Position numbers and translations under genes: made by a program
The notes under the pieces: model-generated
Database searches by the model: none
Told to the model about the DNA's origin: nothing
What the model saw: only the letters and a program-made list of their open reading frames with translations
Part shown: positions 1 to 62,041 of the stretch, piece after piece
How positions within the stretch are numbered: the first letter of the stretch is position 1
Layout of the letters: every line of letters begins with the position of its first letter
DNA from: Thermobispora bispora DSM 43833
GTDB lineage: Bacteria; Actinomycetota; Actinomycetes; Streptosporangiales; Streptosporangiaceae
Length of the DNA stretch: 64,000 bases
Assembly (NCBI RefSeq): GCF_000092645.1
Contig: NC_014165.1
Coordinates: 124,001 to 188,000, forward strand
Direction of reading: 5' to 3'

Positions 1-991
1 GTTGATCACAGAGACGGTGTTCGAGCCGAAGTTGGTGACGTAGGCGCGGGTACCGCCGAGGGTGAACGCCACTAGGATCGGCGTTTCTCCGACCGGGATG
101 GTGGCGATGACGGTGTTGGTGGCGGTGTCGATCACCGACACGTTGTCGGAGCCGAAGTTGGTGACGTAGGCGCGGGTTCCGCCAGGGGTGAACGCCACCT
201 CCCAGGGATTAGTGCCGACGGGGATGGTGGCGATGACGGTGTTGGTGGCGGTGTCGATCACCGACACCGTGTTGTCACCGCTGTTGACGACGTAGGCGCG
301 GGTGCCGCCGGGAGTGACCCCCATTCCGATGGGTTGGGTGCCGACCGGGATGGTGGTGACGACGGTGTTGGTGGCGGTGTCGATCACAGAGACGGTGTTC
401 GAGCCGAAGTTGGCGACGTAGGCGCGGGTGCCGCCGGGGGTGACCGCCACCCCAACGGGCTCAACGCCGACCGGGATGGTGGCGATGACGGTGTTGGTGG
501 CGGTGTCGATCACCGACACGTCGTTGGAGACCTGGTTGGTGACGTAGGCGCGGGTTCCGCCGGGAGAGACGGCCACGTCGTACGGAAGGGCGCCGACCGG
601 GATGACGGCGATGACGCCGTTGGTGGCGGTGTCGATCACCGACACGGTGTCGCCGGTCTGGTTGACCACGTACACCCGGGTGCCGCCGGGACTGGCCGCC
701 ACCCCGGTGGGCCCGTTTTCCGACCGGGATGGTGGCGACGGTGGTGTTGCCGGCGACGTCGATCACCGAAACGGTGCCTTCGCTCTGGTTGGTGACGTAG
801 GCGACCTGGCGTGCCTGGCGGATCTCCTCGGCCGTGGCCGTGGTGGGCGGGGATGCGAGTGCGGTGAGGCCGGTGGCGAGCGCCACCGCGGTGATCGCCG
901 AGCGCAGCCGGGTTCGCCGCACCCGTACCTGCGTCTGAGCGGATATGCCGGCGCGGCGTATCGCCGCGGTGTTGATCCAACGTGTGAGCAT
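1..991 (-). pseudogene. Secreted YVTN beta-propeller protein, frameshifted, 3' end off the window
   Basis: First member of the tandem YVTN family. The start at 991 (MLTRW...) follows a GGGAGG ribosome site 5 nt upstream and opens a long signal peptide with an Ala-x-Ala type end. Blade 1 reads correctly (QVAYVTN ... ATIPVG) and then the frame is lost at a TTTT run (716-719): the paralogues have one T fewer there. After a one-base correction the minus strand stays open to position 1 with 42-residue (126 nt) repeats. Six further repeats are visible. The last, at the left edge, has the TLGGTR signature that marks the final blade of the paralogues, so only about 30 residues lie outside the window. 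Such proteins fold as beta-propellers outside the membrane; the ligand is unknown. The frameshift may be a sequencing error. Confidence 0.8.
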
Positions 992-1110
992 GGAGACCTC
1001 CCATCGAAATGACGGTCTCCTTGTACGCGGACACGGTGAGGCGATTCGATTTACGGCACGCTCAGTTGGCTCACCCGGCCGACGGTTTTGCATGATCGTT
1101 GATCACGTAC
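992..1110 (-). promoter_or_regulatory. Shared upstream block of YVTN gene 1
   Basis: About 110 bp before the start is recognisably the same sequence as the blocks upstream of the other three YVTN genes (2124-2245, 3500-3625, 4895-5015). It ends in the GGGAGGTCTCC ribosome-site segment. Promoter location is inferred from this conservation; no clear -35/-10 pair can be named. Confidence 0.55.
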
Positions 1111-1226
1111 CCGAATAATCACTCAATCCAGGTGCCGATCGCTCACCTGGAATGAATCCGAATTAATGCGTATTCAGGCCTGGTGAATGCGCGTTGCCTG
1201 GCAGAAGTCGGCGGTGAGCAGCGAAA

Positions 1227-1254
1227 GGCCCCTGGCCGATAGGGGGCAGGGGCC
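1227..1254 (-). terminator. Hairpin terminator of YVTN gene 2
   Basis: Inverted repeat with arms GGCCCCTG and CAGGGGCC just beyond the stop of the next gene. The same stem sequence recurs after each family member, so it was duplicated with the gene. Confidence 0.75.
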
Positions 1255-1304
1255 GTTCCGCCGGTGCGCGGCGGCTGAGCCGCCGTCGTGCCGCCGCCGG
1301 ATGG

Positions 1305-2123
1305 CTATGGGACGTTGGCGATGGCGACCTCGGTCGGCGTGTTCCCCACGGTCAAGGTGGCCTCCACGGCGTTCGTGGCGGTGTTGATCACGGACACGGT
1401 GTCGCTGCCCGAGTCGGTGACGTAGGCGCGGGTGCCGCCGAGGGTGACGGCCACCCCGATGGGCCCGGTTCCGACCGGGACGGTGGTGATGACGGCATTG
1501 GTGGCGGTGTTGATCACCGACACGGTGTTGGAGCCCTGGTTGGCCACGTAGGCGCGGGTGCCTCCCGGGGTGACCGCCAATTGGTTGGGCGCGGTGCCGA
1601 CCGGGATGGTGGCGATCACGGTGTTGGTGATGGTGTCGATCACCGAGACCGTGTTGTCGATGGAGTTGGTGACGAGCACGCGGGTGCCTCCGGGAGACAC
1701 GGCCACATCGAAGGGATCAGCGCCGACCGGGATGACGGCGATCACGCCGTTGGTGGCGGTGTTGATCGCCGACACCGTGTCGGAGCCCAGATTGGTCACG
1801 TACACCCGGGTGCCGCCCGGGCTGGCCGCCACCCCCCTGGGCCCGTTGCCGACGGGGATGGTGGCGATGGTGGTGTTGGTGGCCACGTCGATCGCCGAGA
1901 CGGTGTTGTCGTCCTGGTTGGTGATGTAGGCGACTTGGCGGCCTTGCCGTGCGTCGCCGGCGGTGGCCGGGGCCGGCAGGGAGGCGAGTGCGGTGAGGCC
2001 GGTGGCTAGCGCCATCGCGGTGATGGCCGAGCCGAGCCGGGACCGCCGTACCGCCGGCCGCGCCTCACCGGATATCCCGCTGCGGCGATTCTCCGCCGCG
2101 GTCGTGAACCAACGCGTGAGCAT
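1305..2123 (-). CDS. Secreted YVTN beta-propeller protein, five blades
   Basis: 272 residues. A basic N-terminus (MLTRWFTT) and a hydrophobic stretch give a signal peptide ending near ATAGDA at about residue 57. The rest is five 42-residue YVTN repeats: QVAYITN, SPGGTRVYVTN, SPGGTRVLVTN, TPGGTRAYVAN, TLGGTRAYVTD, closing with EVAIANVP. The ribosome site GGAGG lies 5 nt before the ATG. The two intact neighbours have seven blades, so this copy seems to have lost two internal repeats. A five-bladed fold is possible, but an incomplete ring is equally likely. Exported repeat proteins of this family are thought to act in cell-surface binding; no catalytic residues are known and none are seen. Confidence 0.9.
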   Translation of the reverse strand: MLTRWFTTAAENRRSGISGEARPAVRRSRLGSAITAMALATGLTALASLPAPATAGDARQGRQVAYITNQDDNTVSAIDVATNTTIATIPVGNGPRGVAASPGGTRVYVTNLGSDTVSAINTATNGVIAVIPVGADPFDVAVSPGGTRVLVTNSIDNTVSVIDTITNTVIATIPVGTAPNQLAVTPGGTRAYVANQGSNTVSVINTATNAVITTVPVGTGPIGVAVTLGGTRAYVTDSGSDTVSVINTATNAVEATLTVGNTPTEVAIANVP

Positions 2124-2245
2124 GGAGACCTCCGATCGAGATGACGATCTCGTTGTACGCGGTAGCGGCGGCCGGATTCGGCTCCGGCGCGCTCACTTAA
2201 CTCATCCGATCGGTGGCTTTGAGCGATCGTTGAGCGCGATTCCAT
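2124..2245 (-). promoter_or_regulatory. Shared upstream block of YVTN gene 2
   Basis: Second copy of the conserved upstream block, between the start of gene 2 and the terminator of gene 3. It carries the same order of short conserved segments as the other copies, including a GATCGTTGAGC stretch about 110 bp from the start. Confidence 0.55.
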
Positions 2246-2340
2246 CGGATCAGAAAGAATTTCGTTTTGTGTGTTATGCGCAGACGCAAGTGATAAACGA
2301 GCTCCGGCCGCTGTTCGGCCTGGCCGAATCGGAGATGAGA

Positions 2341-2372
2341 AAGGCCCCTGACCGATATCGGCCAGGGGCCTT
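2341..2372 (-). terminator. Hairpin terminator of YVTN gene 3
   Basis: Perfect 10 bp arms AAGGCCCCTG and CAGGGGCCTT with a 12 nt loop, about 60 nt after the stop of the 2435-3499 gene. Confidence 0.8.
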
Positions 2373-2434
2373 GTCAGCGGTGCGCGTACGCCCGTTCCGG
2401 CGGGCGCGCAGCGTTCATCGCGATGAGTGGAGGG

Positions 2435-3499
2435 TCACGGAACGTTGGCGATGGCCACCTCGACCGGACCGCTACCCGCGCCCAGGGAGGCTTCCACGGT
2501 GTTGGTTGCGGTGTCGATCACCGACACCGTGTTGGAGGCGAAGTTGGCGACGTAGGCGCGGGTGCCGCCCAGGGTGACCGCCACCCCGAATGGCTGGGTG
2601 CCGACCGGAATGGTGGTGATGACACTGTTGCCCGCAACGTTGATCACCGAGACGTTGCCGGAGCCTTCATTGGTGACGTAGGCGCGGGTGCCGCCCGGGG
2701 TGACCGCCACCTCACTCGGCAGGCTGCCGACCGGGATGGTGGCGATGACGGTGTTGGTGGCGGTGTTGATCACCGACACGGTGTTGTCTGACCTATTGGC
2801 GACGAGGACGCGGGTGCCGCCGGGGGTGACCGCCACCCCAAGGGGCGTGTTGCCGACCGGGATGGTGGCGATGACCGTGTTGGTCGCCGTGTCGATCACC
2901 GACACGGTGTTGGAGCCGTTGTTGGTGACGTAGGCGCGGGTGCCGCCGGGGGTGACCGCCACCCCGAACGGCTGGGCGCCGACGGGGATGGTGGCGATGA
3001 CGGTGTTGGTGGCGGTGTTGATCACCGACACGGTGTTGGAGCCGTTGTTGGTGACGTAGGCGCGGGTGCCGCCGGGGGTGACCGCCACATCAAAGGGCGC
3101 GGTGCCGACCGGGATGACGGCGATGACGCCATTGGTGGCGGTGTTGATCACCGACACTGTGCCGGAGGTCGAGTTGGGCACGTAGACGCGGGTGCCGCCG
3201 GGGCTGGCCGCCACCCCCCTGGGCCCGTTGCCGACGGGGATGGTGGCGATGGTGGTGTTGGTGGCGACGTCGATCGCCGACACGGTGCCTTCGGTAAGGT
3301 TGCTGACGTAGGCGACCTGGCGGGCCTGGCGTGTCTCATCGGCCGCAGCCGTGGTGGGAAGGGCGGCGAGTGCGGTGAGGCCGGTGGCGAGGGCAGCCGC
3401 CGTGATGACCGCGCGAAGCCGAGACCACCGCACCCCCACCTGAGTCTGACCGGATATATCGGTGCGGCGATTCTCCGCCGCGGCTCTTATCCAACGCAT
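2435..3499 (-). CDS. Secreted YVTN beta-propeller protein, seven blades
   Basis: 354 residues from the ATG at 3499 (MRWIRAAAENRR). In the sister genes the start codon lies seven codon-equivalents from the ribosome site; here that ATG reads AGG, so the start moved to the next ATG and the GGGAGG-to-start spacing grew to about 11 nt, which may lower translation. A signal peptide ends near AAADET. Seven 42-residue YVTN repeats follow. The first (SAIDVATNTTIATIPVG) and last (TLGGTRAYVAN ... EVAIANVP) are position-specific and shared between paralogues, while the internal ones are nearly identical to each other at the DNA level. Seven blades is a classic closed propeller. Extracellular; ligand unknown. 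Confidence 0.9.
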   Translation of the reverse strand: MRWIRAAAENRRTDISGQTQVGVRWSRLRAVITAAALATGLTALAALPTTAAADETRQARQVAYVSNLTEGTVSAIDVATNTTIATIPVGNGPRGVAASPGGTRVYVPNSTSGTVSVINTATNGVIAVIPVGTAPFDVAVTPGGTRAYVTNNGSNTVSVINTATNTVIATIPVGAQPFGVAVTPGGTRAYVTNNGSNTVSVIDTATNTVIATIPVGNTPLGVAVTPGGTRVLVANRSDNTVSVINTATNTVIATIPVGSLPSEVAVTPGGTRAYVTNEGSGNVSVINVAGNSVITTIPVGTQPFGVAVTLGGTRAYVANFASNTVSVIDTATNTVEASLGAGSGPVEVAIANVP

Positions 3500-3625
3500 G
3501 AGCCTGGAGACCTCCCATCGAGATGACGGTCTCGTTGTACGAGGACATGGCGGCGGACTTCGATTTCGGCACACCGACTTGGCTCATCCGGCCGATAGCT
3601 TTGAGCGATTGTTGATCACAGTTCC
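3500..3625 (-). promoter_or_regulatory. Shared upstream block of YVTN gene 3
   Basis: Third copy of the conserved upstream block. It is most similar to the copy at 4895-5015; both contain the segment GATTGTTGATCACA near the distal end. Confidence 0.55.
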
Positions 3626-3731
3626 GGCGGCTCGGACAACTCCGCTGAAAACCGTCTGTTTAAGAATGAATCCGCGATTGGTGGTACGGCCTGGTTGATT
3701 CGCGTTGGCGGGAATCGGCGGTGGGAAAGGG

Positions 3732-3765
3732 AAAGGCCCCTGGCCGGCAAGGGGCAGGGGCCTTT
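3732..3765 (-). terminator. Hairpin terminator of YVTN gene 4
   Basis: Arms AAAGGCCCCTG and CAGGGGCCTTT, perfect 11 bp stem with a 12 nt loop, downstream of the gene ending at 3830. Confidence 0.8.
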
Positions 3766-3829
3766 TCAGCGGTGTGCGTACGCCCGTTCCGGTGGACGTC
3801 GCTCAGCGCTCATCGCGATGAGCGGAGGG

Positions 3830-4894
3830 TCACGGAACGTTGGCGATGGCCACCTCGGTGGGAGTGGCCCCCACGGTGAGGGTGGCCTCCACGGTGTTGG
3901 TCGCGGTGTCGATCACGGAGACCGTGCCGTCGCCGGAGTTGGCCACGTAGGCGCGGGTGCCGCCGAGGCTGACCGCCACGCCGATGGGCGTGGTGCCGAC
4001 CGTGACGGTGGTGATGAGGCTGGCGCCCGCGGTGTTGATCACCGAGACCGTGCCGTCGCCGGAGTTGGTGACGTAGGCACGGGCGCCGTTGGGGCTGAAC
4101 GCCACGTCCGACGGCGTGGTGCCGACGGGGATGGTGGCGATGACGGTGTTGGTGGCGGTGTTGATCACGGAGACCGTGCCGTCGGTCTCGTTGGTGACGA
4201 GGACGCGGGTGCCGCCCGGGCTCACGCCCACGCCGGTGGGCGCGACGCCGACGGGGATGGTGGCGATGACGGTGTTGGTCGCCGTGTTGATCACCGACAC
4301 GGTGTTGGAGCCGTTGTTGGTGACGTAGGCGCGGGTCCCGTCGGGGGTGACGGCCACGTCCGTCGGTGCGGTGCCGACGGGGATGGTGGCGATGACGCCG
4401 TTGGTGGCGGTGTCGATGACCGAGACGGTGCCGGCGCCGGAGTTGGCCACGTAGGCGCGGGTGCCGCCGGGGGTGACCGCCACACCGGTGGGCCCGGCGC
4501 CGACCGGGATGATCGCGATGACGCCGTTGGTGGCGGTGTTGATCACCGAGACCGTGTTGTCAGCGTTGTTGGCCACGAACACCCGGGTGCCACCGGGAGA
4601 GGCCGCCACCCCGTCGGGCGCGGCGCCGACCGGGATGGTGGCGATGGTGGTGTTGCTGGCGACATCGATCGCGGAGACGGTGTTGTCCGCGTTGTTGGTG
4701 ACGTAGGCGACCTGGCGCGGCTGGCGGATCTCCTCGGCCGTGGCCGTGGTGGGCAGGGACGCGAGCCCGGTGAGGCCGGTGGCGAGCGCCGCCGCCATGA
4801 TGACCGAGCGCAGCCGGGACCGCCGTACCCCTACCTGCACGTGGGATATTTCGCGGCGATTCTCCGCCGCGGTCGTGAACCAACGCGTGAGCAT
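3830..4894 (-). CDS. Secreted YVTN beta-propeller protein, seven blades
   Basis: 354 residues, the same length as its neighbour at 2435-3499. The ATG at 4894 (MLTRWFTTAAENRR) follows GGGAGG by only 4 nt, one base less than in the sister genes. The reading frame is open further upstream but the shared ribosome site fixes this start. After the signal peptide come seven YVTN repeats (QVAYVTN, GGTRVFVAN, GGTRAYVAN, DGTRAYVTN, GGTRVLVTN, NGARAYVTN, GGTRAYVAN) and the EVAIANVP end. The repeats have diverged more than in the neighbour, with more ADNTV and GDGTV variants. It is probably surface-exposed or secreted, with unknown function. Confidence 0.9.
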   Translation of the reverse strand: MLTRWFTTAAENRREISHVQVGVRRSRLRSVIMAAALATGLTGLASLPTTATAEEIRQPRQVAYVTNNADNTVSAIDVASNTTIATIPVGAAPDGVAASPGGTRVFVANNADNTVSVINTATNGVIAIIPVGAGPTGVAVTPGGTRAYVANSGAGTVSVIDTATNGVIATIPVGTAPTDVAVTPDGTRAYVTNNGSNTVSVINTATNTVIATIPVGVAPTGVGVSPGGTRVLVTNETDGTVSVINTATNTVIATIPVGTTPSDVAFSPNGARAYVTNSGDGTVSVINTAGASLITTVTVGTTPIGVAVSLGGTRAYVANSGDGTVSVIDTATNTVEATLTVGATPTEVAIANVP

Positions 4895-5015
4895 GAGACC
4901 TCCCATCGAGATGACGATCTCGTTGTACGCGGGCACGGCGGCGGGATTCGGTTCCGGCACACCGACTTGGCTCATCCGGCCGATAGCTTTGGGCGATTGT
5001 TGATCACAATTCCGA
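4895..5015 (-). promoter_or_regulatory. Shared upstream block of YVTN gene 4
   Basis: Fourth copy of the conserved upstream block, ending at the GATTGTTGATCACAATTCC segment. The 335 bp between this gene and the remnant at 5218-5427 holds this block and the hairpin at 5122-5149 and nothing else recognisable. Confidence 0.55.
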
Positions 5016-34882: not shown

Positions 34883-35275
34883 ATGCCTGCATTCAAGAAG
34901 ATCCTCGCTGGTCTGGCGCTGGGGACCGCCCTCACCGGTGGTGCGCTCACCCTGGGCGCCACCGCCGCCAGCGCCACCGCGCCGACCGGCAATTTCGGGC
35001 CCTGTTTCGACAACAACGTCTTCTTCAACGACTGCAACAACTTCTGGAACAACAGCAACTTCTGGACCAGCAACTGCTGGAACGACTCCTACGACGACTC
35101 GTCGGCGTTCGTCGTGAGCAACGGCACCGCGACGATCAGCTTCTTCGACGAGACCCACCGGGACAGCTACTGGTCTAACAGCGGCTGGTTCAACAACAAC
35201 GGCTGGTTCAACAACACGCCCTTCTTCAACGACTGCGGCTTCGGCGGCTTCGGCGGCTGCGGCTTCGGCTTCTGA
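34883..35275 (+). CDS. Secreted low-complexity protein rich in Asn, Phe, Trp and Cys
   Basis: 130 residues from the ATG at 34883, 7 nt after AGGAGG. A signal peptide (MPAFKKILAGLALGTALTGG) ends near ASATA. The mature ~95 residues are repeats of aromatic-asparagine phrases: NNVFFNDCNNFWNNSNFW, SNSGWFNNNGWFNNTPFFND, ending in a glycine-rich GFGGFGGCGFGF tail. Five cysteines sit in FNDC/GPC/SNC contexts. No known family is recognised. The N/W/F/G composition recalls amyloid-forming or surface-coat proteins such as chaplins, but no chaplin motif is present. It has its own A/T-rich promoter region and terminator and so looks like a highly expressed single gene. Confidence 0.85.
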   Translation: MPAFKKILAGLALGTALTGGALTLGATAASATAPTGNFGPCFDNNVFFNDCNNFWNNSNFWTSNCWNDSYDDSSAFVVSNGTATISFFDETHRDSYWSNSGWFNNNGWFNNTPFFNDCGFGGFGGCGFGF

Positions 35276-35375
35276 CGGATCTGCCGTCCGGCCGCTCATG
35301 GCCGTAGATGATCGGAGCAGCTGAGGGAACGAGTTGATCCGGTTACGGGCTGACAGGCGAGCCTGTCACCCGGCG

Positions 35376-35404
35376 AGGCCCCTCCCGCGCGTCGGGAGGG
35401 GCCT
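35376..35404 (+). terminator. Terminator of the Asn/Phe/Trp-rich secreted-protein gene
   Basis: Perfect arms AGGCCCCTCCCG and CGGGAGGGGCCT with a 5 nt loop. A smaller stem, TGACAGGC/GCCTGTCA, precedes it at about 35351-35368. Confidence 0.85.
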
Positions 35405-35575
35405 TCCGCTGCCTCCGTACGGCTGTCTCCGTACGGCCGGGCCGGTTCCGGGGCGACGACTCGCGGCCGGAGCAGGACGGCAAGCCCGGAGCGGGCCCCG
35501 AGGCATGCGCCCGCCGCGGCCGGGGGTAGAGAACAGTCAGCGATCGGCCAAGGCCGCCCCGGGAGGTCGGAGACG

Positions 35576-43680: not shown

Positions 43681-46600
43681 TCAGGCGGCGGCCGGAGCGG
43701 GGGTGAGCGCGGGCCGCGGCGCGGCAGAGGCCACCGGCCGCAGCAGCCACCGCTGGACCACCTCCCCGATGAGGGCCGCGAGGCCGGCGCTGCCCAGGCC
43801 GACCGTCCACCCGACCGGCCCGAGCGGCCGGCAGCCGAAGAAGCCGCTCACCCCGGGCGCGGTCACGATCACGCAGAGCAGGGCGAAGGACGCCAGCACG
43901 GCGAGCACCACGGTCCGGTTCGTGCCGCCACCGGAGAGGGTCTGCAGCAGCTGCGCGGTCACCAGCGCGACCAGCCCGATCGTGGCCGCCCGGCCCCGGG
44001 TGCCCGTCGCCCGCCCGGCGAGCCAGCCCATGGCCGCGGCGAGCGCGGTCACGCCCGCGCGCACGTAGATCTCCCGCATGAGCGAGGCGCCGAGCGACGC
44101 CTCCGGGCCCTCGGTGAGCAGCCGCTCCGGTTCGGTCGAGGTGGGCGGACGCAGCGCCACGGCGATGGCCGGCGCGAGATCGGTGAGCAGGTTCACCAGC
44201 AGGAGCTGGCGCGCGTTGAGCGCCGTGGCGCCGATCAGGCTGGACGCGATGGTGTAGATGATCTCCCCGAGGTTCCCGCCGACGAGGATGCTCAGCGCAT
44301 CCCGGACCGACGACCACATGGCCCGGCCCTCGACGATCGCGTCGACCACGGTCTCGATCCGGTCGTCGGTGACCACGAGGTCGGCCGCGGAGCGCGCCGC
44401 GGGGGTGGCGCGCGAGCCGAGCGCGATCCCCACGTTGGCGATCCGGATCGCCGGGGCGTCGTTGGCACCGTCGCCGGTGACCGCGACCACTTCGCCGGCC
44501 CGGCGCAGGCAGGAGACGATCCGCACCTTGTGCGCCGGGGTGACCCGGGCGAAGACCGACACCTCCGGCAGGAGCTTGGTGAGCGTCTCGTCGTCGAGCT
44601 CGTCGAGCTCCGGCCCGGTCATGATGCGCCCGCCGTTCAGCGTGTTGAGCTCGACCGCGATCGCCTCGGCCGTGCTCGGGTGGTCCCCGGTGATCATCAC
44701 GATCCGCACCCCGGCCCGCATGAGCCGGTCCACGCTCTCCGCGGCCGTGGCCCGGACCGGGTCGGCGAGCCCGAGGAAGCCGAGGAAGCACAGCTCGTCG
44801 ATGCGCGACTCGTCGAGGTCGCTCCGGTCGGACGCCGGGCGCTGGGCGACCGCGAGCACCCGGTACCCCTGGCGGGCCAGCCGGGCGACCTCCCTGGTCA
44901 GCTCGTGCCGGACCGCGTCGTCGCACGGGACCACCTCGGTCCCCCGTAGCGCCGTGGTGCAGTGGTCGATCACGATCTCGGGCGCCCCCTTGACGCTCAG
45001 CAGGTGCCCGTGCTCGGTACGGCCGAGCACCGCGTGGTAGCCGCGCCCGGGCTCGAACGGCATCTCGTCCACCCGCTCCCACACCTGCAGCCCTTCCCGC
45101 GGGGTGATGCTGAGCCGTTCCGCGGCCTCGTGGATCGCGCGATCGGTGGGGTGGGCGAGCACACGGCCGCCGCCGGTCTTGGGGCTCGCCCGCACCGCGG
45201 CCGCGATGACCCGCCGCAGGTGGTGGGTGAGCTCCTCCACGGGCCGGCCGGCCCGGCCGTCGGAGACGTACTGCAGGCTGATCCGGCCCTCGGTCAGGGT
45301 CCCCGTCTTGTCGAAGCAGAGCACGTTGACCCGGCCCAGGGCCTCGATCGTCTTCGGGTTGCGCACCAGCGCGGCGCGCCGGGACAGCCGCCGGGCCGCG
45401 GCGAGCTCGGCGGCCGTGGCGACGAACGGCAGCCCTTCCGGGACGGCGGCCACGGTGAGGCTCACCGCCGGGACGAGCGCGGCCGCGAGGGAACGCCCGC
45501 GGAGCAGCTCGGTCACGAGCAGGAACAGCCCGGAGCCCACCGACAGCGGCAGCACCCGGCGGCTGAGCTCGCGCATGCGCAGCTCGACCCCGCTCACCCG
45601 GGGCGGTGCCGTGCCGAGCTGGGCGGCGCGCCGGGCCTCGGTCATCTCCCCCGTGGCGACGACCACGGCGAGCCCGGTGCCCGCCGCCACGGTCGTCCCC
45701 TCGTAGACCATCGAGGCGCGGTCGGCGATCGCCGCGGCGATGGTGGGCTCTGTCCGCTTGGCGATCAGCTGCGACTCGCCGGTGAGGGTCGACTCGTCGA
45801 CCTCGAGGCCGACCGACTTGATCACCCGTCCGTCGGCGGGGATGGCGTCGCCGGCGCGCAGCTCCACCACGTCCCCGGGGACGAGGTCCTCCTTGCGGAT
45901 CTCCACGGTCCCCTCCGGCCGGCGGACCCGCACCCGGACCGAGGTCGTCTCGGTGAGCCGGGTGAGCTCCCGGTCGGCCTGCGACTGCTGCACGCCGCCG
46001 ATGAACGCGTTGATGACCATCACCCCGCTGATCATCACGGAGTCCACCGCGGAGCCGATGAGCGCGGCGATGGCCGCCCCGCTGGCGAGGGCCGGGGTGA
46101 GCGGGTTGGCCAGCTCGCCGAGCACGGTGCGGGCGAGCGACCGCGGCGCGGCGATCTCGACGGGCCGTGCCGCGGCACGGCGCCGCTCCGCCTCCTCCTC
46201 GGAGATCCCCCGGGGCGACGACCCGAGCCGGGCGAGCACCTCCGGGACGGACATGGCGTGCCAGGGGGTCGGGTCGGCGCGGAGCGGCACCGGTGTCCGG
46301 GCGAGAGCCCGGCCGGCCAGCTCCCCCCACGCCACGGCGACCAGCGCGCCCAGGGAGCTGACGAGCTGCGCCCGCCCCACCGCGCCCGACGCGGGCCCGG
46401 CGAACGAGAACAGCGCGCCGATGAGGCCGCCCGCGACGCCGATCCGGACGCCGTCGCGGCTCGCCGTCTCGGCCCGCCGCAGGCCGATGAGGAGCAGGTG
46501 GAGCCCGGGGAGCCCGCCGGCCACGTCGGCGTCCCACGGCACCGTGGCCGTGCCCGGGTCCATCACGCCGAAGCCGATGTCGGCCTGGGCGAGGGCCTCC

Positions 46601-48066
46601 CGGGCGCGCCGGGACACCACGAGCACGCAGTGCCCCTCCGCCTGCATCTCGAACACCCGGTGGGCGAGGTCCGCCCCGCCCGGGAGCACCTGGTCGATCG
46701 CGAGCCGGTGGGCGGTGCCGTCCTCATCGCCGGCGAGCAGCACGGTCCCCGCGGCCTTGGCCGCGGCCACGATCGGAACGGCGAGCGGGTCGATCTCCCG
46801 GGACAGGCCCACGAGCGCCACCGGGGTGTCCGCGCGGCGCACCTCGACCAGCCGCATCCCGCGCCCCCGCCACTCGGTGGCGTGCGTGCCCGGGAACCGG
46901 GCCGGGTCGGTGAGCGGCGCGGCCGACCACTCCTCGTCGATCCGGGTCGCGCCCGGGTCGGTGAAGTCCAGGAGCCGGTACAGGCGGGCGTACAGCTCGT
47001 TGAGGTCGAGCTCGTCCACGAGCGGCTCGACCCGGTCGATCGCCCAGGAGCCGGTGGTGAGCGCGTCGGAGTCGAGGACCACCGTGTCGACGCGGTCCAT
47101 CCTGCGGAGCGCCTCGGCGTCGAAGACCACGGTGTCCCGCTCACCCAGCGCCCGCCGTACCGCGCCGGCGAACGCCTCCCGGGTGTATTCGGCGATCTTC
47201 GGGGTGATCGCGGTGAGGACCGCGAGCGCGCGCTCGTCCTGGCGCGCGGCGAAGCGCATGAACCCGTAGGTGAGGGCGGCGGCCGTGCTCGCCAGGTCGG
47301 CGTACCGCTCGATCGGGCCGTGCGGCAGGTGCGTGGGGCGGCGCCGGAACCGCGCCCGGACGTGGCGGTAGGAGCCGGGGACCTCCGCGAGCCGCCGCTC
47401 CAGCGCCACCCACGAGCGCTGGGCCGCCCTGGTCTCCACGTAGCGGCTGAGGGCGGCCATCGAGTGCGCCACCAGCCCGAGCGGGCGGAGGGTGAGCGTC
47501 TGGGTGACCAGGTTGGCGGTGTGGAAGAGCGCGTTCGCCGGGCCGCGCCCGATGCGCTTGTCGAGCTCCTCCCGCAGGACGGGTGTGGCGTTGAGCAGGT
47601 TGACCAGGGCGGGCACGGCCGGGGAGAGCCGGGGCGCCCGCAGCGCGATCCCGGTGAAGATCGTGCCGACGCCGGCCACCCCGGTGGCGAGCCGGATGAT
47701 GGACCGGATGTGCTCCTCGACGACCCGGACGGGGGTCTCGTGCGCGTGCCGCTCCTGCTCGTCGAGCTCCCGGGCGATCTCGAGCAGCTCCTCCCGGTCG
47801 ACCGCCTCGGGGTCGCACCCGACGAAGACGCAGCCGAGCCGGCCGTTGACCTCGGCGCGCTCGACCCCGGGCAGCGCGCTCAGCCGTTCCTCGAGCAGGG
47901 CCGCGGACCGCTCGGTCCCCGGGCCGCCGATCCCGCGCAGGTCGATCCGGAGCCCGCCCGGGCAGGCGATGACCCGGCGCGGCGTCACCACCAGCCCGCG
48001 GAGGGGTTCCGGGAGCACGTCCCTGAGCACCGGGGCGTACGACGCGAACAGCTGGGTGAGGAACAT
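43681..48066 (-). CDS. Very large cation-transporting P-type ATPase (CtpI-like)
   Basis: 1461 residues from the ATG at 48066 (GGAG 7 nt upstream). The C-terminal ~840 residues are a complete P-type ATPase: LTGES at about residue 762, phosphorylation site FDKTGT with D919, MITGDHPSTAEA, VTGDGANDAPAI, six or so final helices. The first ~600 residues contain an HMA-like segment (LSALPGVERAEVNGRLGCVF), extra membrane helices and a decayed second P-type unit (VDTVVLDSDALTTG in place of DKTGTLT). This double architecture is known from mycobacterial CtpI. The transported ion is unknown. Repeat-rich DNA lies upstream. Confidence 0.92.
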   Translation of the reverse strand: MFLTQLFASYAPVLRDVLPEPLRGLVVTPRRVIACPGGLRIDLRGIGGPGTERSAALLEERLSALPGVERAEVNGRLGCVFVGCDPEAVDREELLEIARELDEQERHAHETPVRVVEEHIRSIIRLATGVAGVGTIFTGIALRAPRLSPAVPALVNLLNATPVLREELDKRIGRGPANALFHTANLVTQTLTLRPLGLVAHSMAALSRYVETRAAQRSWVALERRLAEVPGSYRHVRARFRRRPTHLPHGPIERYADLASTAAALTYGFMRFAARQDERALAVLTAITPKIAEYTREAFAGAVRRALGERDTVVFDAEALRRMDRVDTVVLDSDALTTGSWAIDRVEPLVDELDLNELYARLYRLLDFTDPGATRIDEEWSAAPLTDPARFPGTHATEWRGRGMRLVEVRRADTPVALVGLSREIDPLAVPIVAAAKAAGTVLLAGDEDGTAHRLAIDQVLPGGADLAHRVFEMQAEGHCVLVVSRRAREALAQADIGFGVMDPGTATVPWDADVAGGLPGLHLLLIGLRRAETASRDGVRIGVAGGLIGALFSFAGPASGAVGRAQLVSSLGALVAVAWGELAGRALARTPVPLRADPTPWHAMSVPEVLARLGSSPRGISEEEAERRRAAARPVEIAAPRSLARTVLGELANPLTPALASGAAIAALIGSAVDSVMISGVMVINAFIGGVQQSQADRELTRLTETTSVRVRVRRPEGTVEIRKEDLVPGDVVELRAGDAIPADGRVIKSVGLEVDESTLTGESQLIAKRTEPTIAAAIADRASMVYEGTTVAAGTGLAVVVATGEMTEARRAAQLGTAPPRVSGVELRMRELSRRVLPLSVGSGLFLLVTELLRGRSLAAALVPAVSLTVAAVPEGLPFVATAAELAAARRLSRRAALVRNPKTIEALGRVNVLCFDKTGTLTEGRISLQYVSDGRAGRPVEELTHHLRRVIAAAVRASPKTGGGRVLAHPTDRAIHEAAERLSITPREGLQVWERVDEMPFEPGRGYHAVLGRTEHGHLLSVKGAPEIVIDHCTTALRGTEVVPCDDAVRHELTREVARLARQGYRVLAVAQRPASDRSDLDESRIDELCFLGFLGLADPVRATAAESVDRLMRAGVRIVMITGDHPSTAEAIAVELNTLNGGRIMTGPELDELDDETLTKLLPEVSVFARVTPAHKVRIVSCLRRAGEVVAVTGDGANDAPAIRIANVGIALGSRATPAARSAADLVVTDDRIETVVDAIVEGRAMWSSVRDALSILVGGNLGEIIYTIASSLIGATALNARQLLLVNLLTDLAPAIAVALRPPTSTEPERLLTEGPEASLGASLMREIYVRAGVTALAAAMGWLAGRATGTRGRAATIGLVALVTAQLLQTLSGGGTNRTVVLAVLASFALLCVIVTAPGVSGFFGCRPLGPVGWTVGLGSAGLAALIGEVVQRWLLRPVASAAPRPALTPAPAAA

Positions 48067-48895
48067 TCGGTCTCTCCGTGTGGACGACTGCCTGGTTCCT
48101 GGCCCTGGGGATTCACCGGGATGGCCGGTCATCCGGCACCGTGAGCCGTTGGCGGCCGGGTACGGCCGGCCGGGCGGGGCGCCGTGGCGCGGCCCGGTGC
48201 GGCGGTGCGGTCAGTCATCACCCCTCCTCGCTGGCGTGCGATGGGGGGTTGACCGGCGTGCCCGCCGGGCGCTCCGGCGGGCTCCGGCCGCGTGGCGGCG
48301 GCCGGGTTCCGTCGTCTCTACTTCTTCCCCACGAATCCCGGACGGCCAATCCCGGAAAAACAGTGCCTTGACTCACGAATCAGCGCGCTGTGCAGGCGGG
48401 CACCGCGGACGGAACGCGTGCGGGTGCGGTCACGCCGTGGGGCACCGGCGGGGACGGCCGGCCGGAGGCCTCGCCCGATCGATACGGGGCGGCCAGCCGT
48501 ACGCGCCCGAGCGGTTCGGGCCGGTCGGCGGGACGGGCTCGATCGGGTACGGGCTGGTCGGCGGGACGCGCCCGACCGGGAAGGGCAGTTCAGCGGGGCG
48601 CGCCGTGGCCGCGTGGACCGCGGGGCCGAGTTCGGCCGGAGCAGGGGGATCAGCGGGAGATGCCGTGGCGCGTGGACGCGCGAGAGTGAGCGGGGCCGGA
48701 GCCCTGGGCGGTCAGTCGGAGAGGCCCTGGCCGCGCGGACCTGCGAGACGCGCCATGGTTCCGTGGACCTGCGGGAGCGAGCGGCGGCCGGAGCCCTGAG
48801 TGATCAGTCGGAGAGGACCTGGCCGGGCGGACCTGCGGGACGCGCCGTGGCCGCGTGGACCCGCGAGAGTGGGCGGCGGCCGGAACCTTGGGCGA
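48067..48895. repeat. Gene-free stretch with ~65-90 nt degenerate repeats
   Basis: The last 300 bp (about 48595-48910) consist of four degenerate units sharing GCCGTGGCCGCGTGGACC, GCGAGAGTGAGCGG, GGCCGGAGCCCTGGG and GATCAGTCGGAGAG. The final unit runs into the VOC gene and includes its stop codon. 48067-48590 is gene-free with weaker GGGCGCGCC(C)GACCGGG repetition. Confidence 0.6.
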
Positions 48896-49405
48896 TCAGC
48901 GGGAGACGCCGATGCCGCCCTGGGTGTGGGCGCCGTACCGCTCGATCTCCTTGGCCAGGTCGAGCGGCCGGATCGTGCTCCGCCCGGCGATGATCTCGTC
49001 GGTGAGCCGGTCCGCCGGCACCACCCAGCACACCTCGAACTCGAGGCCGTCGGGGTCCTGGGCGTAGAGCGCCTTGGTGGTCGAGTGGTCGGAGGCGCCC
49101 ACGAGCGCGCCCATCTCCTGAAGCTTCCGGGCGATGCGCTCGAGTTCGGCGAGCGTGTCCACCTCCCAGGCGAGGTGGTAGAGCCCGACCGTGTGCCTCC
49201 CGGCGGTGGACGGCCCCGCGTGCGGGCCGATCTCGAAGAGCGCGAGGTCGTGGTCGTTGGTCGAGCCCGGAGCCTGCAGGAACGCCGCCCCGCGCAGGGC
49301 GATGTCGCCGATGACGCGGAACCCGAGCGCCTCCTGGTAGAAGGCCACGCTCCGGGCGAGGTCCCGCACGTAGAGCACCGCGTGGTTGAGCCGCTGGACA
49401 GGCAT
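48896..49405 (-). CDS. VOC-family (glyoxalase / extradiol dioxygenase-like) protein
   Basis: 169 residues from the ATG at 49405, 5 nt after AAGGAG. The vicinal-oxygen-chelate pattern is complete: RLNHAVLYVRDLARSVAFYQ (first metal His), GLYHLAWEVDTLAELERIAR (second His), DPDGLEFEVCW (Glu). It resembles catechol 2,3-dioxygenase-like single-module enzymes. Substrate unknown. The 3' end is embedded in the repeat array that continues downstream. Confidence 0.9.
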   Translation of the reverse strand: MPVQRLNHAVLYVRDLARSVAFYQEALGFRVIGDIALRGAAFLQAPGSTNDHDLALFEIGPHAGPSTAGRHTVGLYHLAWEVDTLAELERIARKLQEMGALVGASDHSTTKALYAQDPDGLEFEVCWVVPADRLTDEIIAGRSTIRPLDLAKEIERYGAHTQGGIGVSR

Positions 49406-50105: not shown

Positions 50106-51527
50106 TCAGCCGGACAGCAGGGCGGCCGGGTCGGCGATGACCTGCTCGATCACCTGGCCGGCCGCGCCCAGGGCGGCCGCCTCGGTGCCGAGGCGGGAGA
50201 CCACCACCGGGGGCACGGTCGGACGCATCCGGCCGAGCCGGGTGGTGAGCGCCTCGGTCACCGGCTCGGCGAGCCATGGGAAGAGCGGCGCGTAGATCCC
50301 GCCGAGGACGATCGCGTCGGGGTCGAGCAGGTTCACGGCCGAGCAGAGCGCGACGCCGAGCGCCGCCCCGGCCTGCTCGCACGCGGCGAGCGCGGCCTCA
50401 TCCCCGGCCTCGAGCCGGGCGAGCAGGTCGCGGACGCCCGCGGCGGGCGCCTCGGCGGTGACGTCCAGGCCCTGCGCGGTATCCGGGCCGTGCGCGGAGC
50501 CCGGGCCCTCCGTGGTACCCGGACCCTCCGCGGTACCCGGGCCTTGTGCGGTGCTCGAGCCTTGCCCGATACCCGGGCCATGCGCGGTGTTCGATCCTTG
50601 CGCGCTGCCCGAACCGTGCGCGGTGTTCGAGCCTCGTCCGATGCTCGAGCCCTGCGCGGTGCTCGGGCCGTGCGCGGAGCCCGGACGGTGCGCGTCGCCC
50701 GGTCCCGTGATGCCGGCCGCCGCCAGCAGGGCCTCCTGTCCGGCGTACCGCTCCAGGCAGCCGCGGCCGCCGCACCGGCAGGGCGGGCCCTCGGGGCGGA
50801 CCACCACGTGACCGAGCTCCCCGGCGAAGCCGTGCGTCCCCCGGAACAGGCGGCCCTGGACGACCACCCCGGCGCCGATGCCGATCTCCCCGGAGACGTA
50901 CACGAAGTCGGGCAGGCCGGTGCCGAACCACAGCTCGCCGAGCGCGGCGAGGTTCGCCTCGTTCTCCACCCGCACCGGGAACGGCAGGTCGAGCAGGCCG
51001 GCGACCGGGACCTCCCGCCATCCGAGGTTCGGCGCGTTGTACACCGTCCCGGTGGCGTCCACGGGTCCGGGCACGGCCAGGCCGCCGCCCACCACCCGCA
51101 GCCCCATGTCCACAGCCTCATCCACAGCCGAGAGCGCCATTGTCCGCAGAGATCCGATGACTTCCACAGGGTCGGCGCCCCGGTTGTCCACAGCCTGTGT
51201 ACGGCGCAGCCGTACCGTGTGGGCGAGGTCGACCACGCGGAGGGCGAGGTAGTCGACGTTCACCTCCAGGCCGAGCGCGGCGACGCGGTCGCCGCTCACC
51301 TGGACCTCGACCCCCGGCCTGCCGCGCTCCCCGTCCCGCACCGGGCCGGCCTCGGTCACCAGCCCGGCCTCGATGAGGTCGGAGACGAGCTTGGAGACGG
51401 TCGTCTTGGTGAGCCCGGTGATCTCCGCGAGCGCCGCTCGGGTGAGCGATCCCCGGGCGCTGAGCTCGCCGAGCACGAGCGCCAGGTTCCGGGCGCGCAT
51501 TGCGTCGTGCCGTATTGCCCGTTTCAT
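50106..51527 (-). CDS. xylR: ROK-family xylose repressor with a hexapeptide-repeat insertion
   Basis: 473 residues from the ATG at 51527. N-terminal winged helix (RGSLTRAALAEITGLTKTTV, SKLVSDLIEAGLV), then the ROK domain: sugar-site segments (VENEANLAALGELWFG, GIGAGVVVQGRLFRG, HGFAGELGHVVV) and the zinc motif CRCGGRGC at residues 250-257. Residues 275-358 are an inserted array of 14 six-residue units such as GPGTAE, GSNTAH and GPGIGQ, encoded by 18 nt repeats (50454-50705), after which the normal C-terminus resumes. It is divergent from xylA with a palindromic operator between, so it should repress xylAB when xylose is absent. Confidence 0.9.
   Translation of the reverse strand: MKRAIRHDAMRARNLALVLGELSARGSLTRAALAEITGLTKTTVSKLVSDLIEAGLVTEAGPVRDGERGRPGVEVQVSGDRVAALGLEVNVDYLALRVVDLAHTVRLRRTQAVDNRGADPVEVIGSLRTMALSAVDEAVDMGLRVVGGGLAVPGPVDATGTVYNAPNLGWREVPVAGLLDLPFPVRVENEANLAALGELWFGTGLPDFVYVSGEIGIGAGVVVQGRLFRGTHGFAGELGHVVVRPEGPPCRCGGRGCLERYAGQEALLAAAGITGPGDAHRPGSAHGPSTAQGSSIGRGSNTAHGSGSAQGSNTAHGPGIGQGSSTAQGPGTAEGPGTTEGPGSAHGPDTAQGLDVTAEAPAAGVRDLLARLEAGDEAALAACEQAGAALGVALCSAVNLLDPDAIVLGGIYAPLFPWLAEPVTEALTTRLGRMRPTVPPVVVSRLGTEAAALGAAGQVIEQVIADPAALLSG
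50454..50705 (-). repeat. In-frame 18 nt repeat array inside the ROK gene
   Basis: Fourteen 18 nt units, plus-strand consensus GCC(C/T)TGCGCGGT(A/G)CCCGG, exactly in phase with codons. They encode G-(P/S)-x-(T/S/I)-(A/G)-x hexapeptides. The units are diverged, so the array is old or drifting. Confidence 0.85.
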
Positions 51528-51596: not shown

Positions 51597-51621
51597 ATTT
51601 AGTCCACAACGTGGACTAAAT
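51597..51621. promoter_or_regulatory. Xylose operator and xylA promoter
   Basis: Perfect 11 bp arms ATTTAGTCCAC and GTGGACTAAAT around AAC, between xylR and xylA. A candidate promoter overlaps: TTGACC at 51571-51576 and GATATT at 51594-51599, 17 bp apart. The repressor bound here would block the -10 and start region. Confidence 0.9.
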
Positions 51622-51635
51622 CGGAGGCAAGCGTC

Positions 51636-52781
51636 ATGTACACCCCCACCCCGGAGGACCGCTTCTCGTTCGGGCTGTGGACCGTCGGCTGGCAGGCGCG
51701 CGACCCGTTCGGCGACGCCACCCGGGCCCCGCTCGACCCTGTCGAGACCGTGCACCGCCTCGCCGAGCTCGGCGCGTACGGCGTGACCTTCCACGACGAC
51801 GACCTGCTCGCGGTCGAGCCGGACCGGACCAAGGCCATCGAGCGCTTCAAGAAGGCGCTGAGCGAGACCGGCCTCAAGGTCCCGATGGCGACCACCAACC
51901 TCTTCACCCACCCGATCTTCAAAGACGGCGCGTTCACCAGCAACGACCGGGACGTCCGGCGCTACGCCCTGCGGAAGGTCATGCGCAACCTCGACCTCGC
52001 CGCCGAGCTGGGCGCCAAGACCTACGTCTGCTGGGGCGGCCGGGAGGGCGCCGAGTCGGACGCCGCCAAGGACGTCCGGGCCGCGCTCGACCGGTACAAG
52101 GAGGCCCTCGACATCCTCTGCCAGTACGTCATCGACAAGGGCTACGACATCCGGTTCGCCATCGAGCCGAAGCCGAACGAGCCGCGCGGCGACATCCTGC
52201 TGCCGACCATCGGCCACGCGCTCGCCTTCATCAACGAGCTCGAGCACCCCGAGCGCGTCGGCCTCAACCCGGAGGTCGGCCACGAGCAGATGGCCGGGCT
52301 GAACTTCGTCCACGGCATCGCCCAGGCGCTCTGGCACGGCAAGCTCTTCCACATCGACCTCAACGGCCAGCACGGCCCGCGGTACGACCAGGACCTCATC
52401 TTCGGCCACGGCGACCTGATCAGCGCGTTCTTCCTCGTCGACCTGCTCGAGCACGGCGGCTACGACGGCCCGCGCCACTTCGACTACAAGCCGATGCGGA
52501 CCGAGGACAAGGAGGACGTCTGGGAGTCCGCCGCCGCGAACATGCGGATGTACCTCATCCTCAAGGAGAAGTCGAAGGCGTTCCGCGCCGACCCGGAGGT
52601 TCAGGAGGCGCTCGCCGCCGCCCGGGTCCCCGACCTCTCCCAGCCGACGCTCGCCGAGGGGGAGACCATCGACGACCTCCTCAACGAGGAGTTCGACCCG
52701 GACGCCGCCGCGGAGCGCGGCTACCACTACACCCGGCTCAACCAGCTCGCCATGGAGCATCTCCTCGGCGTCCGCGGCTAA
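51636..52781 (+). CDS. xylA: Xylose isomerase
   Basis: 381 residues from the ATG at 51636 (GGAGG 8 nt upstream). Converts D-xylose to D-xylulose. Class I (actinobacterial, ~385-residue) enzyme. Catalytic His53 and Asp56 are in VTFHDDDL, the metal Glu and Lys in [11 protein letters not shown] (about residue 177), [14 protein letters not shown] and FHIDLNGQ give further metal ligands. All residues are present. First gene of the xylAB operon, 11 nt before xylB. Confidence 0.97.
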
Positions 52782-52792
52782 GGAGGGCGAAC

Positions 52793-54184
52793 GTGACGCT
52801 CGTCGCCGGGGTCGACTCCTCGACCCAGAGCTGCAAGGTCGTGATCCGCGACGCGGAGACCGGTGCCCTGGTCCGGGAGGGGCGGGCCCCGCACCCGGAC
52901 GGCACCGAGGTCCACCCGGACCACTGGTGGACCGCCCTCCAGGCCGCCATCGAGGAGGCGGGCGGGCTGGACGACGTCGCCGCCATCGGCGTCGCCGCCC
53001 AGCAGCACGGCATGGTCTGCCTCGACGAGAACGGCGAGGTGGTACGGCCGGCCCTGCTGTGGAACGACGTCCGGTCGGCCAAGGCCGCCTCCGACCTGGT
53101 CGCCGAGCTCGGCGGCCCGGAGCGGTGGGCGGAGGCCGTGGGCAGCGTCCCCGTGGCCTCGTTCACGGTGACCAAGCTCCGCTGGCTCGCCGAGCATGAG
53201 CCGGAGAACGCGCGGCGCACCCGCTCGGTCTGCCTCCCGCACGACTGGCTCACCTGGCGGCTCGCCGGCCGGCCGGAGGTGATCACGACGGACCGGGGGG
53301 ACGCCTCGGGCACCGGGTACTGGTCCCCGATCACCGGGTCCTACCGGATGGACCTGCTCGAGCTCGCGATGGGCGCCACCCCCGAGGTGCCCCGGGTGCT
53401 CGGCCCCACCGAGCGGGCGGGCACGGCGGGCGACGCGGTGCTCGCCCCGGGCACCGGCGACAACATGGCGGCCGCGCTCGGCGTGGGCATGGGCCCAGGG
53501 GACGTGGTGATCTCCATCGGCACCTCGGGCACGGCGTTCGCGGTCTCGGACACCCCGTCCCGCGACCCGTCCGGCACGGTCGCCGGGTTCGCCGACGCCA
53601 CCGGGCGGTTCCTGCCGCTCGTGTGCACGCTGAACGCGGCCCGGGTGCTCGAGGCGGCGGCCCGGATCCTCGGTGTCTCCCACGACCGGTTCAGCGAGCT
53701 CGCCCTGCAGGCGCCGCCGGGCGCCGGCGGGCTGGTGCTCGTGCCGTACCTGGAGGGGGAGCGCACCCCGAACCTGCCGGACGCGACCGGGTCCCTGCAC
53801 GGGCTGCGGCTCGCCACGTCCACCCCGGCGCACCTCGCCCGGGCGGCCGTGGAGGGCATGCTCTGCGGCCTGGCCGACGCGCTCGACGCGCTCAAGATCG
53901 AGCCCCGGCGGATCCTGCTGATCGGCGGCGGCGCGCGCTCCGAGGCGGTCCGGCGCATCGCGCCCGCGGTGTTCGGCCGGCCGGTGCTCGTCCCGGAGCC
54001 GGCGGAGTACGTCGCGAACGGCGCGGCCCGCCAGGCGGCCTGGGTGCTCTCCGGGAAGCCGGAGCCGCCGGAGTGGCGGCTCGGCGAGATGGCTCGCTAC
54101 GAGGCCGACCCCACCCCGGGCCTGCGCGAACGCTACCGGGAGGCCACCGCCCTGGTGGCCGGCGGCGCCGTGGCGGGGGCCTGA
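52793..54184 (+). CDS. xylB: Xylulokinase
   Basis: 463 residues from the GTG at 52793, 6 nt after AGGAGG. FGGY kinase: the N-terminal ATPase segment [16 protein letters not shown], the catalytic region [10 protein letters not shown], the second ATP segment [14 protein letters not shown] and the FGGY-type end ([20 protein letters not shown]). Phosphorylates D-xylulose for the pentose phosphate pathway. Slightly shorter than E. coli XylB (484). In operon with xylA. Confidence 0.95.
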
Positions 54185-61083: not shown

Positions 61084-62041
61084 TTCCGCTCCGCCCACCG
61101 CGCGCCGGCGATATTCCCCGGGAATGAGCCCGGGCATCGAATTGCAGGGAAATCCTTACCGTCAGCATGACAGGAAGGCATCGGGACGGTAATCCTTCAT
61201 CGCCGGAATTCGGTGATATGTGGGCGGCGGAATTCCGGCTGCGGAGCACGTGAGAGATATCAGAGGCGGCACGGATGAAACATGAATGAAATTCAATGTG
61301 ACGGGCCCGTGGCGGGAGCGTCGCTCACGGTGCAATGCGGTGGACCCGCTCGCCGTGCCGTGGGAGCGGGCCGCCCGGGGTTCCCATGCGCTGATGCCGG
61401 GGTCCACCGCGCCGTGGGGAGCGGCCGGCCGGGATCCCGGTGCGCCGATGCCGGGGTCGCCTCGTGCGGTGCGGAGCGGGCCGGCCGGGATCCCGGTGCG
61501 CTGGTGCCGGGCCTCGTACCCGTGTCGTGGGGAGCCGGCCGTCTGGGGGTCCTGTGCGCTGATGCCCGGGGTCCACCGCGCCGTGGGGAGCGGCCGGTCG
61601 GAGTCTCCGTGCGCCGATGCCGGGGGTCGCATCCGGGCCGTGGGCGCACGCCCGGGTCCGGCGCATGCCCGCCGCCACGCCGGGCGTGCCCGCCGGCCGG
61701 CGGGCACGCGTGCGGGCCGGGATCGCGTCCAGCGGATGCCGTGGAGGACACGCCCGCACGTCCGCCCGCCGGCCCATCGTTCAGGACCACGCCCCGCGTC
61801 GAAGGCGGACTGACATCCGTTGCGCCGCGCCAACTCACCCGGGACAAGGCTCCGTAGGACGGGCCCCGGGACGCGGCCAAGGGACGGCTCCGGGGACGCG
61901 GCCGTAGGACGGATCGTGGCCGGCTCGCCGGCCGTGGGCCCGGCGGCCCGGGCACGCCACCGTTTACGGAGCGGCCGGAGGCGTGCCCGTGCCGTACGGC
62001 CCCGGCCGGATCGGCGCCGGGCCCGGGCGACCGGCGGGCGC
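61084..62041. repeat. Gene-free ~960 bp with ~66-69 nt degenerate repeats
   Basis: After an A/T-richer promoter-like zone to about 61300, the stretch 61335-61680 holds five to six degenerate units built from GCCGTGGGGAGCGGCCGGCC, GGGATCCCGGTGCGC and (C/T)GATGCCGGGGTCCACCGC. On the minus strand they read as 22-23-residue periodic peptide without a start. The remainder to 62041 is GC-rich with short GGGACGCGGCC repeats. No gene recognised. Confidence 0.55.

Follow-up and report, generated by a model that had tools for sequence, protein, structure and literature searches.

The xylose repressor gene of Thermobispora bispora DSM 43833 carries a long run of hexapeptide repeats inside its reading frame, which raises the question of what such an insert is, how it came to stand within a sugar-binding domain and whether it matters to the repressor. 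The gene is found in the window, the stretch of 64,000 nucleotides analysed here (contig NC_014165.1, positions 124,001 to 188,000), which belongs to a genome of 4,189,976 bases in one contig.

The xylR locus and its array

xylR (50106-51527, reverse strand; ATG at 51527, stop TGA at 50106) encodes a ROK-family transcriptional repressor of 473 residues. Its Pfam ROK match, which reaches 154.7 bits (cut-off 22.9), is split in two by the insert, and the C-terminal part of the domain (profile positions 197-289) resumes after it at 50157-50435 (reverse strand). The N-terminal winged helix-turn-helix, residues 17-64 (51336-51479, reverse strand), matches MarR_2 with 36.3 bits (cut-off 27) and its helices are present in the AlphaFold2 model. 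The zinc motif CRCGGRGCLE (50751-50780, reverse strand), which has the CxCGxxGCxE pattern, stands just before the loop, and C250, C252, G253, G256, C257 and E259 are invariant in alignment A1. The role of this motif in ROK proteins is taken from a portion of PMC2742894.

The divergent neighbour xylA (51636-52781, forward strand) encodes xylose isomerase (TIGR02631, 679.6 bits, cut-off 447) and is followed by xylB (52778-54184, forward strand; start codon approximate), which encodes xylulokinase (TIGR01312, 416.5 bits, cut-off 380.25). Both scores exceed the NCBIfam cut-offs. Between xylR and xylA lies an operator-like perfect inverted repeat, TTTAGTCCAC-AAC-GTGGACTAAA (51598-51620), with 10-base arms and a 3-base spacer. 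A similar site is found somewhere in the locus for 56 of 95 orthologues with at most 3 mismatches in 20, and for 69 with at most 4. xylA adjoins the xylR orthologue in 93 of the 95 loci, and of the two exceptions L045 is truncated close to the end of its contig. The identity as a xylose repressor, already given by the initial annotation, is thus well supported by the neighbouring xylA and xylB. Streptomyces XylR, likened here by role and neighbours and not by sequence, is also a xyl operon repressor beside xylA and xylB. A section of PMC6149001 reports it as the repressor of the xyl operon, describes the xyl genes as induced by D-xylose and cites a deletion study according to which XylR represses this operon in Streptomyces lividans.

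The array (50454-50705, reverse strand), read from 50705 down to 50454, is composed of 14 consecutive 18-base units, all in frame and free of stop codons, and lies between the zinc motif and the C-terminal helices, as first described. From the N- to the C-terminus the units are GPGDAH, RPGSAH, GPSTAQ, GSSIGR, GSNTAH, GSGSAQ, GSNTAH, GPGIGQ, GSSTAQ, GPGTAE, GPGTTE, GPGSAH, GPDTAQ and GLDVTA. The motif G-[PS]-x-[TS]-A-x, which had been ascribed to the whole array, fits strictly in only 8 of the 14, units 1, 2, 4, 8, 11 and 14 being deviant at one place or more; the periodicity and the count of 14 are real. Unit 14 is marginal, since it matches the unit consensus at 10 of 18 bases (11-17 in the other units). 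The periodicity is far beyond chance: the self-identity of the array at lag 18 is 0.69, a value reached by none of 20,000 codon shuffles, whose maximum is 0.46. Tandem Repeats Finder calls the array independently, with periods of 18, 36, 54 and 72. Third-position GC is 0.81 in the array, against 0.92 in xylR before it and 0.97 after it.

The whole variable loop, as delimited in alignment A1, covers residues 271-362 (92 residues; 50442-50717, reverse strand). In the AlphaFold2 model, built with 34 aligned sequences (mean pLDDT 84, pTM 0.81), the insert begins after a short helix at 264-270 and stops before the helix at 363-373. Residues 280-357 are below pLDDT 50 and most of the remainder is above 90; the insert itself, at 34-45, is modelled without regular structure. 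The fold matches ROK repressors (Lmo0178, Mlc) over nearly the whole chain with Z about 35, namely 5f7q (Z 35.6 over 374 residues), 3bp8 (Z 35.6 over 364) and 1z05 (Z 35.1 over 371), and with 1z6r included Z is 33-36. With ROK domain, winged helix-turn-helix and repressor fold all matched around the insert, the regulator is otherwise of standard design, as had been noted at the outset. The insert is predicted to be a disordered loop in an otherwise confident ROK fold. A second AlphaFold2 model, of the Microbispora protein L041, whose loop repeats are unrelated, likewise has a disordered loop, at residues 277-413. XylR, NagC/Mlc and Lmo0178 all combine a winged helix-turn-helix with a ROK sugar-binding domain that carries the zinc motif, whereas the solved ROK repressors have a short and itself variable segment where T. 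bispora XylR has its 92-residue loop. In the sequence alignments to solved ROK proteins the length of this site varies naturally, being longer in 2qm1 and shorter in 2hoe.

Loop length and repeats among relatives

A contig scan gave 64 loci. A search of 200 family genomes gave 98 with a match at the strict cut-off of E <= 1e-80, and a further genome search, again with a strict E-value cut-off, counted 86 of 150 genomes, whose loci are outside the comparison that follows. The 123 family loci, after removal of 5 without the right anchor and 23 duplicates, leave 95 distinct orthologues. L122, suspected of a frameshift, was left out as cut off or broken: its reading frame ends within the loop, and the C-terminal motif was found in none of the frames of the stretch analysed.

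Among the 95 orthologues, the segment between the zinc motif and a conserved C-terminal anchor is between 27 and 189 residues long (median 42, standard deviation 35.4), and the standard deviation of length is 4.0 for the part before it and 4.8 for the part after it. In T. bispora the loop proper has 92 residues. The 31 relatives whose rows in alignment A1 cover it have 1-146: four Microbispora records have 140-146, L040 and L092 have 61 and 62, L048, L049, L053-L056 and L058 have 1-8, and more distant relatives such as Micromonospora and Actinoplanes have 4-15. The chain without the loop has 379-382 residues in 18 of the 20 Streptosporangiaceae rows of this alignment, with 371 in L056 and 375 in L058. 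The comparison of repeats in relatives that the initial annotation had proposed as a check thus finds repeat content that varies widely, and an identical repeat number in all relatives together with a known structured domain, which would have refuted the annotation's reading, is not what the family presents.

Length can differ between close relatives. L157 and L159 share 95% identity in the part before the loop and have segments of 64 and 95 residues; for L150 and L151, at 93%, the segments have 63 and 92. On a tree of the 95 proteins with the loop left out, long (at least 63 residues) and short segments exchange at least 11 times, a count that depends on a quick build in which 33 of 92 inner branches are weak and on the single cut-off tried. 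Some of the length is inherited, because the loops of the Microbispora-type clade are mostly long and share a common tail, MLLPAQQG. This tail is conserved just before the C-terminal helix in L039, L041, L043, L098, L105 and L114 and could be a short functional motif.

The periodicity of the loop is reached by none of 300 codon shuffles in 12 of the 95 loops, where chance would give about 0.3, and by 1 of 300 in L047. The best lags of these 12, in bp, are 33 in L130 and L039, 36 in L041 and in T. bispora (twice its unit), 54 in L107, 15 in L092 and L159, 24 in L040, 18 in L151, 30 in L162, 63 in L096 and 9 in L046. That all 12 are in frame is not separate evidence, because codon shuffles, too, score best in this test at lags that are multiples of 3. 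In 15 of the 27 segments of at least 63 residues a tandem origin is not visible, since their periodicity falls short of the 0-of-300 level. All 27 long loops are hydrophilic or small-residue, with 84-100% of A, G, P, S, T, D, E, Q, N, R, K and H. A metal-binding His-rich loop was rejected as an explanation: the share of His is 0.18 in L040, 0.06 in T. bispora and 0.00 in 11 of the 27.

The repeat units are mostly unrelated between species, as GHGTEHSA (L040) and AGDTRD (L046) illustrate. L151 is an exception, with a Gly-Pro-Gly-rich unit and an 18-bp period like that of the T. bispora array. The loop site tolerates 1-146 residues in relatives and has been expanded many times with unrelated units, and what recurs among the orthologues is the site of expansion and not the hexapeptide.

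Other ROK genes serve as a control. For a ROK paralogue at 2.81 Mb of the T. bispora genome (G000:C1), 60 of 120 family genomes contain a relative at E <= 1e-90, and the equivalent segment of this paralogue is 46-54 residues long in 26 of 30 loci, the other 4 being unmatched by the pattern. Three other T. bispora ROK genes with a recognisable motif, L001-L003, have no repeat insert at the equivalent site; L005 and L006, which gave no motif, were left out of this comparison. Loop expansion therefore appears particular to the XylR site and not general to the ROK genes of these genomes.

Origin of the insert

The array probably arose by a tandem expansion specific to its lineage, in a loop of XylR that is exposed, disordered and unconstrained and that recurrently gains in-frame duplications, which then drift; T. 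bispora is represented in the comparison by one genome of its genus. Tandem duplication at such a site most likely produced the insert as a by-product that the protein tolerates. In the predicted fold the loop connects the helix that follows the zinc motif with the helix that opens the C-terminal half. Short stretches of GC-rich DNA may be duplicated by slippage or unequal recombination, and only multiples of three would persist, since the essential C-terminal half is encoded further downstream. The copies would then drift, with hardly any requirement except to remain hydrophilic and in frame. Presumably XylR continues to bind its operator and to let go of it when xylose is present, the loop being a passive flexible bulge.

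Substitutions are consistent with this course. Between the 14 units pN is 0.335 and pS is 0.343 (pN/pS about 0.98), values that rest on 14 short, partly saturated GC-rich repeats, whereas the XylR core compared with the orthologue L092 gives 0.109 and 0.392 before the loop (pN/pS 0.28), and 0.112 and 0.276 after it. The units thus show no sign of constraint on replacements, and the remaining repressor does.

Low-complexity and intragenic tandem repeats of prokaryotes, for which DNA slippage is a proposed origin (according to a part of PMC6821194), are similarly rich in Gly, Ala, Pro, Ser and Thr, in frame and disordered. Unlike them, the XylR repeats keep to a single site of one regulator, within a globular domain that binds the ligand, and their units differ by lineage. 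Contingency loci with coding repeats also have tandem repeats inside a gene, whose number can change. The XylR units differ from these in being degenerate and multiples of three, and hence give no on/off switching by frameshift.

The strongest competitor to a tolerated by-product is a tuning element, in which the number of repeats or the length of the loop would adjust how the repressor works, through dimerisation, inducer affinity or turnover, and expansions are selected as a slow rheostat on xylose use. The repeated independent expansion at one site of XylR, absent from the ROK paralogue, agrees with this, as does the MLLPAQQG tail common to one clade, and the loop follows the zinc motif of the lobe that dimerises in a ROK kinase (from an excerpt of PMC2742894). 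Near relatives with the same gene neighbourhood nevertheless have loops of 1-8 residues, and the units are unrelated between species and free of replacement constraint, which makes tuning unlikely. A loop that is a dedicated evolutionary tuning site, where length might alter dimerisation or the xylose response, selection might favour in-frame growth and thresholds might become species-specific, is a reading to be held with strong doubt. If tuning were true, each species would set its own xylose threshold via loop length.

A structured repeat domain, with the hexapeptides forming a left-handed beta-helix or a collagen-like rod, for instance, would account for the strict six-residue period and for the Gly that opens 13 of the 14 units. 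It is very improbable given the low pLDDT and the lack of regular structure in the model. Hexapeptide units of the left-handed beta-helix have the form [LIV]-G-x4, while no aliphatic residue holds a fixed position in the array, and the Pfam hexapeptide family gives no match to the array at E up to 1. The 84 array residues searched alone match no Pfam family over its cut-off, the best hit being to an unrelated family (E 0.052). A collagen-like G-x-y repeat was rejected, since Gly occupies position 4 in 0 of 14 units and so recurs at every sixth, not every third, residue.

A mobile or dispersed DNA repeat inserted by chance in frame has an equally slight probability: degenerate GC-rich arrays are plentiful between the genes of this genome (34 in 864 kb), but a search of the array DNA against the genome yields no convincing second copy (next best E = 0.003, 38 bits), and the same site is occupied in many species by differing sequences and periods. 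Tandem repeats are prone to misassembly, yet an artefact in the repeat number is scarcely credible here, as the units differ mutually at many bases and comparable loops occur in independent genomes. The genome is moreover reported as finished, with Sanger finishing reads that served to resolve repeats and an error rate below 1 in 100,000 (PMC3035289).

In the open-access literature, searches on tandem repeats in ROK-family repressors and on intragenic, intrinsically disordered repeats of bacteria gave no paper that by its title deals with this loop, and searches on XylR in Microbispora, on xylose repressors of the ROK family with operator and crystal structure, and on repeat slippage gave no paper. 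XylR offers a natural series with the same neighbours, a near-constant core and a loop of 1 to about 150 residues, in which one can ask if a disordered insert leaves a globular regulator unaffected or changes how it responds. Going by the paralogue control, such variation seems to belong to the XylR site and not to the ROK genes of these genomes generally.

Other arrays of the genome

The survey of arrays covers the window and forty 20-kb samples, 864 kb in all, with genes from a rough codon-usage caller (80% coding, 702 genes), and counts arrays of at least 2.5 copies and a score of at least 80. The xylR array is missing from its rows, probably because the overlap filter kept the 72-bp reading of 2.0 copies, which is below the copy cut. 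Thirty-four arrays lie outside called genes, 12 inside and 9 more partly in genes. The period is divisible by 3 in all 12 in-gene arrays and in 15 of the 34 outside genes (Fisher p = 0.0005, or 0.0025 without three arrays of 42-residue repeats), a test on which codon bias has an influence and which does not count the 9 arrays partly in genes. The in-gene arrays comprise these three, from a region whose one tested stretch matches beta-propeller families, and others that are Pro/Ala-rich or collagen-like stretches.

The suggestion in the initial annotation that the xylR array shares its period with the other GC-rich arrays does not hold. Elsewhere in the window, the arrays that lie outside called genes show periods of 20, 30, 32 and 56 bp, and one beside the 32-bp array has 92 bp, against 18 in xylR, whose array has no convincing second genomic copy. 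A common generating process for the xylR array and the others, filtered by frame inside genes, is plausible but unproven.

The non-coding arrays nearest to xylR are those of 32 and 92 bp, two adjoining GC-rich arrays at 48472-48910 between a P-type ATPase gene and a gene with weak VOC/glyoxalase-type matches. A P-type ATPase-like protein (43681-48132, 1483 residues) has its ATPase matches from near residue 625, and its first 620 residues are unexplained by NCBIfam. At 61353-61644 lie 56-bp units in 5.2 copies, outside the genes of the rough caller. Clustered repeats of 9-21 bp are present at 35010-35437, and their consensus units would be Asn/Trp/Phe- or Gly/Phe-rich in one frame. Several blocks of 126-bp (42-residue) repeats, 71-82% alike, occupy 4-4936, and within them 3830-4936 (reverse strand) has YNCE-like and Lactonase beta-propeller Pfam matches over their cut-offs. 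The top-scoring non-coding array of the 864-kb sample is located in L209 (17561-17853, genome C1 about 1.6176 Mb) and has 90-bp units in 3.3 copies, 94% alike, outside called genes.
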